Part shown: piece after piece, positions 4,078-9,490 of the stretch
Numbering within the stretch: position 1 is the first letter of the stretch
Layout of the letters: the number at the start of each line of letters is the position of its first letter
Source: Nitrospinota bacterium
GTDB taxonomy: Bacteria > JADFOP01
NCBI GenBank assembly: GCA_022562795.1
Contig: JADFOP010000058.1
Span: forward strand, 1-9,901
Direction of reading: 5' to 3'
Length of the DNA: 9,901 nt
Program-made: the position numbers and the translations under genes
The notes under the pieces: generated by a model
What the model was told of the DNA's origin: nothing
The model's input: only the letters and a program-made list of their open reading frames with translations
Database searches by the model: none

Positions 4078-4081
<4 letters not shown>
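3218..4081 (-). CDS. pyrK: Dihydroorotate dehydrogenase electron-transfer subunit (FAD, 2Fe-2S)
   Basis: Partner of class 1B PyrD. It passes electrons from the PyrD flavin through a [2Fe-2S] cluster and FAD to NAD+. The 287-residue protein has a ferredoxin-reductase FAD domain with RAFAIFDI (50-57) and [14 protein letters not shown] (76-89), an NAD domain with [15 protein letters not shown] (113-127) and YACGPEGML (205-213), and a C-terminal cluster domain with Cys237, Cys242, Cys245 and Cys268. The spacing C-x4-C-x2-C is standard. The 22-residue gap to the last Cys is longer than in the forms I know, because of a Gly/Arg-rich insert around 250-265. The ATG overlaps the carB TGA by 4 nt (ATGA), with GGAG at 4087-4090 five nt upstream. 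The 3' end overlaps pyrD by 20 nt, which fits stoichiometric synthesis of the PyrD/PyrK complex. Confidence 0.96.
3246..3251 (-). promoter_or_regulatory. Strong Shine-Dalgarno of pyrD inside pyrK
   Basis: GGAGGT on the minus strand lies 8 nt before the pyrD ATG and within the pyrK coding sequence. It supports the start at 3237 despite the 20-nt overlap, and suggests that pyrD is translated efficiently in its own right as well as by coupling. Confidence 0.8.
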
Positions 4082-7342
<3,261 letters not shown>

Positions 7343-7359
<17 letters not shown>

Positions 7360-8290
7360 GATGTCTTACGCTCGTCCGCTCCAACTTGTCTAAAACTTCT
7401 TTAATATTTTTGTATGTTTTTGGAGAATACGTTGGGCTGTCAAATTTACTTGATACTATGTCGTCATATGCCTTTACATAATGCGAAATCGTTCGATCTG
7501 TTGTAAAGACATCGACATAAGGCAAGGCTTCTATATGATTGAAATCACCGACTACGTCCGAAGGACGTGGTTTTGTCCGAGTATCTCTTATCAATACGTG
7601 GAAGATTTCAAAACTTAACCGGCGGCTTGGGCATACAGCAGGATTCTTATAAAGGTATTTAGCGAAACTCAACCTAATGTCTTCGCCATCAAGTTCATGA
7701 TGGCTATTTATCCTTCCGCCTGTTAAACCCTGAACAACCTTGTCATATAAAAGTTCTTTTGTTGCAGTGAGAACATTTGGAAACCTTTGAATCGTTTCTC
7801 TATCTTTGCGAATCAAATCCTCATACCTGTCAAATAGAACTTTATGGTGAGCAACAAGGTCAAAACCATTTAACTTCTGCCCATACATTTGGTCCCAAAT
7901 CATTTCAGATAATGACTTGGAACGGTAATAGTTTCGTACTTCTCTAGATACATCTACAAGAGTATCTATGTAACTTCGTACAAACGGGTCTATTGGCTTA
8001 CAATACTCTCCTTGAGAATATTGTATAAATGCAACATCTAGCTCATCTTTTTTCAAAGATGAGATATTTATCCATACGTGTGGCAAGTTCTCAAGATAAT
8101 TACATCTGCTCATCACATTCGATTGACCTTCGCTGTAAAGTGGCCTCGTCATTTCATCTATATGAATAAACGAATAAACTAGCTTTGCATCGTGATCGAG
8201 CAGAAAATCGTTGAAGCGATTGATTGTTTCAACTGAGATCGAATTATCAGCAAGTGAATTTAAATCTTTGCTATCAAGATATATTAACAT
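7343..8290 (-). CDS. Uncharacterised PIN-like nuclease-fold protein inserted between carA and carB
   Basis: I cannot name this 315-residue protein's family. The pattern resembles PIN-like metal-dependent RNases. A first strand is followed by Asp6 ([10 protein letters not shown]), Glu46 ends a second strand (SFIHIDE), and a C-terminal block holds Asp245, Asp249, His252, Pro257, Asp260 and Asp265 ([19 protein letters not shown], then TTDR). Residues about 65-240 are largely helical and charged, and would be a long insertion between the two halves of the fold; classical VapC toxins are only about 130-150 residues. No signal peptide or membrane segment is seen. Codons strongly favour A/T at third positions, unlike all neighbours. 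The ATG at 8290 has a weak GGAA (8298-8301) upstream and lies 44 nt after carA. The TGA overlaps the carB start by 17 nt, so it should be co-transcribed with the operon. No antitoxin-like partner lies beside it. The coding call is firm; the PIN assignment is inference from motif spacing only. Confidence 0.85.
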
Positions 8291-8300: not shown

Positions 8301-8306
8301 CGGGTA

Positions 8307-8330
8307 GTCGGGGTCGCCCCTGACCCCGAC
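8307..8330. repeat. Perfect 9-bp inverted repeat between carA and the inserted gene
   Basis: GTCGGGGTC (8307-8315) and GACCCCGAC (8322-8330) are exact reverse complements around a 6-nt loop (8316-8321). The hairpin begins 4 nt after the carA TAA and ends 16 nt before the start of the AT-rich gene. It is GC-rich like the host, not like the insert. No T-run follows it in the direction of transcription, so it is not a standard intrinsic terminator. It could be a pause or mRNA-protecting hairpin for carA, a small interspersed palindromic repeat, or a boundary or target of the inserted segment. The sequence does not decide between these. Confidence 0.75.
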
Positions 8331-8334
8331 GCCT

Positions 8335-9471
8335 TTATCCCCTCCTCTCCTCCATCGCCTCGATGAAGCGGTCGAAGAGGTAGCTGGCGTCGTGGGGGCC
8401 GGGGGAGGCCTCGGGGTGGTACTGGACGGAGAAGACCGGTCTCGTCCGGTGCCGGAGACCTTCGCAGGTCCCGTCGTTCAGGTTCACGTGGGTGAGCTCC
8501 AGCTCTTCCGGCAGTGTCTCTATGTCAACGGCGAAGCCGTGGTTCTGGCTCGTAATCTCGACCTTCTCGGTGGTGAGGTCCTTGACCGGCTGGTTGGCCC
8601 CCCTGTGGCCGAACTTGAGCTTGAAGGTCTTCGCGCCGAGCGCGAGCGCCATAATCTGGTGGCCGAGGCATATTCCAAATAGGGGTTTGTCCAGCTTATC
8701 CAGCAAGGCCGCCACCGTCTCGGCGGCATACGGCACGCCGGTCGGGTCGCCGGGGCCGTTGGAGAGGAAGATGCCGTCGAAGGTCTCGGCCCTCTCCAGG
8801 AGCCACTCGGCCGAGGCGGTGGCCGGCGCCACCTGGACGTCGCAGCCGCGAGCCACGAGGTTTCTCAGGATGTTTTGCTTGATGCCGTAGTCGAAGGCCA
8901 CCACCCGGTGGCGGGCTTCACCTGGGCCGGCGTAGCCGTCCTTCAAACTCCAGAGAGCCTGCTCCCAGCCGTAGGGCTCCTGGCAGGTGACTTCCCGGAC
9001 GAGGTCCCTTCCGATCAGGGAGGGCACGGCCCTGGCCTTCTCCATCAGTGAGCCCCGGTCGAGGTCCACCGACGACAGCACCCCGTCCATGGCCCCGACC
9101 GTCCGGATGTGCTTGGTCAGAGCCCGGGTGTCGATGCCCTCAATTCCAACGATGCCCCAGGCTTTCAAGTAAGCGTCGAAGCTCATCCGGGAGCGCCACG
9201 AGGAAGGCGCCCTGGAGGCCTCCCGAACGATGAAGCCCTCCACCTGGGGTCGGGCCGACTCGAAGTCTTCCTCGTTGCAGCCGACGTTGCCGATCAAAGG
9301 GTAGGTCATGGCGACGATCTGGCCCTTGTATGAGGGGTCGGTCGTAATCTCCTGGTAACCGGTCATGGAGGTGTTGAAGACCACCTCGCCCGTGGCCTCT
9401 CCGAGGGCCCCGAGGGCCCGGCCCTCGAAGATCATCCCGTCTTTGAGCGCCAGGATGGCCTTCTCGCTCAT
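8335..9471 (-). CDS. carA: Carbamoyl-phosphate synthetase small (glutaminase) subunit
   Basis: Hydrolyses glutamine and channels the ammonia to CarB for carbamoyl phosphate synthesis, which feeds both pyrimidine and arginine pathways. The protein has 378 residues, normal for the family. The N-terminal CPSase domain (about 1-150) includes [11 protein letters not shown] and DPSYKGQI. The C-terminal class I amidotransferase domain has [10 protein letters not shown] (194-203), SNGPGDP (237-243), the nucleophile Cys268 in FGICLGHQ, and His352/Glu354 in QYHPEA, so the Cys-His-Glu triad is intact. I chose the ATG at 9471 because the protein then begins [12 protein letters not shown], as the family does. 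The frame stays open for 62 more codons upstream, but this overlaps pyrC and does not resemble CarA. The ribosome site is only a weak purine run (AAAAGAG). pyrC ends 19 nt upstream. Downstream, instead of carB, comes an unrelated AT-rich gene. Confidence 0.97.
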
Positions 9472-9490
9472 GTCTCGCTCTTTTCTTGAC

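Follow-up and report, generated by a model that had tools for sequence, protein, structure and literature searches.

A solitary AT-rich gene with a PIN-like signature between carA and carB of a Nitrospinota pyrimidine operon

The genes carA and carB encode the small and large subunits of carbamoyl-phosphate synthetase. In a contig from an uncultured Nitrospinota bacterium (GenBank assembly GCA_022562795.1, contig JADFOP010000058.1) the two are separated by an AT-rich gene, which raises the question of where this gene came from, what its product might do and how the operon has accommodated it.

Organization, composition and distribution of the intervening gene

The window analyzed here is the whole contig (C58), 9,901 nucleotides in length, and holds the pyr/car region of a host genome of 2.15 Mb in 84 contigs (G000). 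The genes are transcribed from the minus strand in the order end of pyrC, carA, a 315-codon ORF, carB, pyrK and pyrD. By translation carA (8335..9477, minus strand, with its TAA stop at 8335-8337) is intact, as is carB (4078..7359, minus strand, with its ATG at 7359), and they are 68% and 71% identical, respectively, to the carA and carB of G002, a genome of the same class. The ORF between them (7343..8290, minus strand) is intact, begins with ATG and, from its composition and a signature described below, is an AT-rich gene predicted to encode a PIN-like nuclease of 315 aa. Its 3' end overlaps the start of carB by 17 bp (7343..7359, minus strand), and its TGA stop is supplied out of frame by the carB sequence ATG CCC AAA CGT ACT GAC. 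On the other side, a spacer of 44 bp, most of it a dispersed REP repeat, separates the ORF from carA. A preliminary description, made from the sequence alone, had placed the ORF between carA and carB in the direction of the operon, and the translations, coordinates and strand agree with it; the remaining junctions are also as tight as it stated, with pyrD overlapping pyrK and pyrK overlapping carB. The 17-bp overlap with carB had been overlooked. A chimeric assembly of the carA-ORF-carB region is unlikely, since the carB-side junction is overlapping and non-repetitive, and since a misjoin at the REP would by chance have to bring exactly carA to carB. ORFs or spacers between carA and carB have been reported in some Pseudomonas and Neisseria.

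The composition of the ORF sets it apart from the surrounding genes. Its GC content is 37.2% (46.5, 32.0 and 33.2% at the three codon positions, giving a GC3 of 33.2%) versus 64.8% for carA and 63.5% for carB, both of which have a GC3 of 85-88%, and in 300-bp windows the GC of the ORF lies at 35-40%. A CAI-like score was 0.27 for the ORF and 0.47-0.70 for the remaining genes of the window. Among 137 host ORFs (mean GC 0.614, SD 0.056), a non-random sample of ORFs >360 bp from approximately 150 kb around REP copies, it had the lowest GC and the lowest GC3, the next lowest GC being 0.411. The gene is thus compositionally foreign, as had been proposed; the low GC noted earlier was correct, with the whole-gene value slightly higher than the 33-35% then given. 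The first dozen codons of carB (7317-7359) are AT-rich too, and under a two-state GC segmentation the AT-rich block extends leftward into carB, with its edge at 7317-7327. This AT-rich carB start may reflect ordinary start-codon composition or may be a trace of the acquired segment.

In G002 carA ends 24 bp before carB, a comparison that is thin because this is the sole same-class relative with both genes assembled, and in the unrelated, distant genome G003 the gap is approximately 12 bp. The comparison set for the phylum consisted of three genomes, namely the host, G002 and G001, the last of which is from the same genus (85% complete, 780 contigs) and has both carA and carB outside its assembled sequence. 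No match to the ORF protein was found in G001, G002 or 57 more distant genomes, in 398 genomes of one large phylum, or in plasmids, phages and viral contigs. A profile search of 386 diverse genomes recovered distant relatives only, and among approximately 780 genomes, plasmids, phages and viral contigs there was no close relative. Since carA and carB are adjacent elsewhere, the gene is absent from the searched relatives and its composition is extreme, the ORF was very probably acquired horizontally by one lineage. The junction comparison that had been suggested, with carA and carB adjacent in both G002 and G003, supports the earlier proposal that a foreign gene was inserted here.

The REP element at the carA-side junction

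The spacer between carA and the ORF contains a GTAG-tagged REP, GTAGTCGGGGTCGCCCCTGACCCCGA (8304..8329, plus strand), which abuts the carA stop and is separated from the ORF start by 13 bp. The REP core has 28 copies in the genome, while the reversed control pattern gave 0. Three Y1_Tnp (RAYT) proteins are encoded in the host genome, and the gene for one of them (C16:446-775) is flanked by two REP copies. GTAG REPs are defined by the GTAG tag, a short palindrome, many copies and a RAYT gene with flanking copies, and a RAYT gene between two REPs constitutes the REPtron arrangement (PMC3733652). The element at 8304-8329 has the tag, the palindrome, the copy number and the copy-flanked RAYT gene of this type. 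The preliminary description held that no mobile functions are present; this is true of the ORF itself, which carries none, but the REP in the adjoining spacer had been missed.

Most REP copies in the host are intergenic or located at the ends of genes and are not accompanied by foreign cargo, and no REP was found on the carB side of the ORF. We therefore treat the REP as a neighbor that marked the insertion site or arrived later. Other copies have a RAYT-side flank, TAAAAGGAG, that is similar to the carA stop, GATAAAGGCG, so the REP may have landed on the carA stop and re-supplied the stop codon. In the transcript the REP could also fold into a hairpin immediately before the ORF and thereby reduce translation of the ORF.

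Several other features of the REP family were observed. The segment C16:369-906 (L028) comprises the RAYT gene together with its two flanking copies of the GTAG REP family, and several other REP copies have bases from the beginning or the end of the RAYT gene as their flanks and so look like internally deleted REPtrons. A second dispersed palindrome, GGGACAGGG...CCCTGTCC, occurs beside many REPs (L027, L031, L035, L040). Further GC-poor genes lie near host REP copies (L031:5507-6367, L041:174-1782, L022:777-2490 and L030:7461-8012); they include a DNA methylase (N6_N4_Mtase) with an adjoining ORF and a DUF5677 protein, and several of the GC-poor ORFs near REP copies have no Pfam match.

PIN-like blocks in the protein and its distant relatives

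The HMM searches and structure prediction that had been suggested for the protein gave neither a model match nor a usable fold: Pfam (the VapC PIN model PF01850 included), NCBIfam, PHROG and PADLOC models and a PDB sequence search did not match it, and the AlphaFold models were unusable, with a pLDDT of 41 from the single sequence and 39 with seven distant relatives. The protein does contain a collinear PIN-nuclease signature consisting of LIYLD (D at residue 6), SFIHIDE (E at residue 46), D249 and D265. The codon of D6, the predicted first catalytic acid, lies at 8273..8275 (minus strand), and the predicted third and fourth acidic blocks, D249-D265, are encoded at 7496..7546 (minus strand), both placed by motif comparison. 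In PIN-like nucleases the second acid is expected in an S/T-x5-E block some 30-40 residues after the first; the predicted second acidic block here, SFIHIDE (S40-E46), is encoded at 8153..8173 (minus strand) and has an S-x5-E spacing matched in six of eight distant relatives. The C-terminal feature of this superfamily, a D..(I/H) helix and then a strand bearing T-D, has its sequence counterpart in D249..H252 and T264-D265, and on visual inspection the C-terminus resembles the final pair of acidic blocks in PIN domains. Against the PIN reading, the residue two after D6 is K, where N is usual.

Relatives were sought with a degenerate DNA pattern for the C-terminal motif LPYVDxFxTD, which matched 25 stretches when run on 84,980 genomes. 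Most of these were other proteins, but in four (L051, L053, L059 and L061) the motif was near the end of an ORF of 270-340 aa, and all four, found by the C-terminal motif only, also carry the N-terminal hydrophobic strand ending in D. The most specific single-virus motif match (L079) was a phage structural-type protein and was rejected as a relative. The profile over the 386 diverse genomes added L072, L073/L074 and L075 with the same layout of blocks, and a later profile search added L106, giving eight relatives (L051, L053, L059, L061, L072, L073, L075 and L106) that are 14-25% identical to the query.

The motif expressions were composed after the sequences were seen and the relatives were found partly through the motif itself, so that the following counts serve as a guide and not as a formal test. 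The N-terminal hydrophobic strand ending in D was present in the query and all eight relatives versus 4 of 160 control ORFs, and the S-x5-E block in six of the relatives (seven of nine with the query) versus 13 of 160; a single control ORF of the 160 had both. In genuine VapC proteins S/T-x5-E was found in 8 of 16. A profile of seven relatives recovered the query with an E value of 9e-7, which is partly circular. Alignments to the 16 VapC proteins with hhalign were weak, with P 0.016 for the N-terminal block (full family) and P 0.066 for the C-terminal block (query left out), while reversed controls gave P 0.5-0.6. Judged by these motifs, we consider it highly probable that the ORF protein is PIN-like.

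The surroundings of the relatives were varied. The gene of L072 directly adjoins the stop codon of hsdS (Methylase_S, E 2e-19), L053 has AbiEii and AbiEi a few kb away, L059 abuts a helicase-domain protein, L106 is 2.7 kb from a Mutator-family transposase and L075 is near Mu-like phage portal and protease genes, whereas L051 and L061 have ordinary neighbors. In addition, an 83-aa remnant in G623 (L071) adjoins a BrnT gene (E 3e-24). The majority of the relatives are GC-poorer than their surroundings, for example 0.387 versus 0.599 for L075 and 0.322 versus 0.429 for L061. From these contexts and the low GC, both read in the relatives alone, the group appears to behave as accessory genes at varied sites, often linked to mobile elements or defense. 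The preliminary description had asked whether homologues lie in defense islands or at varied insertion points, and at this distance several do have defense or mobile neighbors and the sites do vary. In an unrelated genome (L107:4173-6586) a PIN-like relative starts at the end of hsdS, and it may belong to a type I restriction operon.

Proposed origin and function, and comparison with known systems

The reading we favor, to which we assign a probability of approximately 0.6, is that an acquired, solitary gene for a PIN-like nuclease, an RNase of the defense or toxin type, became lodged between the end of carA and the start of carB. Both carA and carB were left undamaged. Under this reading the pyr promoter would give rise to a carA-REP-nuclease-carB mRNA, from which the nuclease would be made at a low level because of its poor codon match and weak ribosome-binding sequence. 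Given the 17-bp overlap, the ORF would be translated just ahead of carB, and the overlap would let ribosomes re-start at carB through translational coupling, keeping the Car subunits near balance. In the protein, D6, E46, D249 (or D245) and D265 are predicted to hold Mg2+/Mn2+ and to cleave RNA. No antitoxin gene is adjacent, the neighbors of the ORF being carA and carB, and we infer on this ground that residues ~60-235 may form a recognition or self-inhibiting part. The RNase would then stay inactive while cells grow normally and become active upon infection or stress. A defense or selfish function, as first suggested for this gene, receives indirect support from the PIN signature and from the distant relatives near hsdS, AbiE, BrnT, IS or Mu-like genes, but PADLOC gave no match; a defense activity is a putative one, predicted from sequence.

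Other explanations would account for parts of these data. The gene could be an orphan toxin or decaying passenger from a former toxin-antitoxin or restriction locus, partnerless, without benefit and not yet lost. Its solitary state with no neighboring antitoxin gene would be expected of such a passenger, the G623 relative has been left as a remnant beside BrnT, and the last residues of the ORF come from host-like DNA and carB, so that the original C-terminus has possibly been lost. The frame of 315 codons is nevertheless intact, none of the three PIN blocks is missing and its size agrees with that of full-length relatives (250-337 aa), and we regard a passenger as rather unlikely. It is also conceivable that the likeness to LPYVD.F.TD is convergent and that the ORF encodes another protein altogether, given that the 25 pattern matches include unrelated proteins with the motif, that no PIN model matches and that the pLDDT values were so low; what makes this improbable is that the query and six or more of its relatives have the three acidic blocks ordered and spaced as in PIN proteins.

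The position of the REP, between the carA stop and an ORF start only 13 bp away, together with the Y1_Tnp proteins of the host, one of them encoded between two REP copies, might instead point to the REP and the ORF having arrived as one transposed unit. We rate this as highly unlikely because the carB side has no REP, and most REP copies are without foreign cargo.

The locus is an example of an intact foreign gene accommodated in one of the most tightly coupled operons, which remains unbroken. The scattered PIN-like proteins, found beside restriction, AbiE and toxin loci, escape Pfam, NCBIfam and PADLOC, and this group may include undescribed defense nucleases. It is tempting to speculate further that the gene represents a new family of PIN-like RNases, each encoded by one gene, self-contained and able to sense infection via its middle region, and that the location of this gene in the pyrimidine operon ties its dose to nucleotide demand, but we consider this very doubtful; if true, expression would rise as an infecting phage depletes the nucleotide pool.

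Compared with known systems, the ORF protein has in common with VapC PIN toxins (PF01850) the order of the acidic blocks, namely hydrophobic strand-D, S/T-x5-E, D..(I/H) and T-D. VapC proteins are approximately 130 aa long and have an adjacent VapB antitoxin, whereas the ORF protein, of 315 aa, is solitary, has its blocks separated by a long insertion and is not matched by PF01850. As regards GTAG REP elements and RAYTs, the REP here adjoins the ORF with no sign of carrying it. The eight unmodelled PIN-like relatives (250-340 aa) resemble the ORF protein in block layout and size, but none of them lies in a car operon. The ORF protein is therefore new as a protein, while the PIN-like kind is already known, and the locus exemplifies the acquisition of a lone gene at an unusual site and does not represent a new kind of system.
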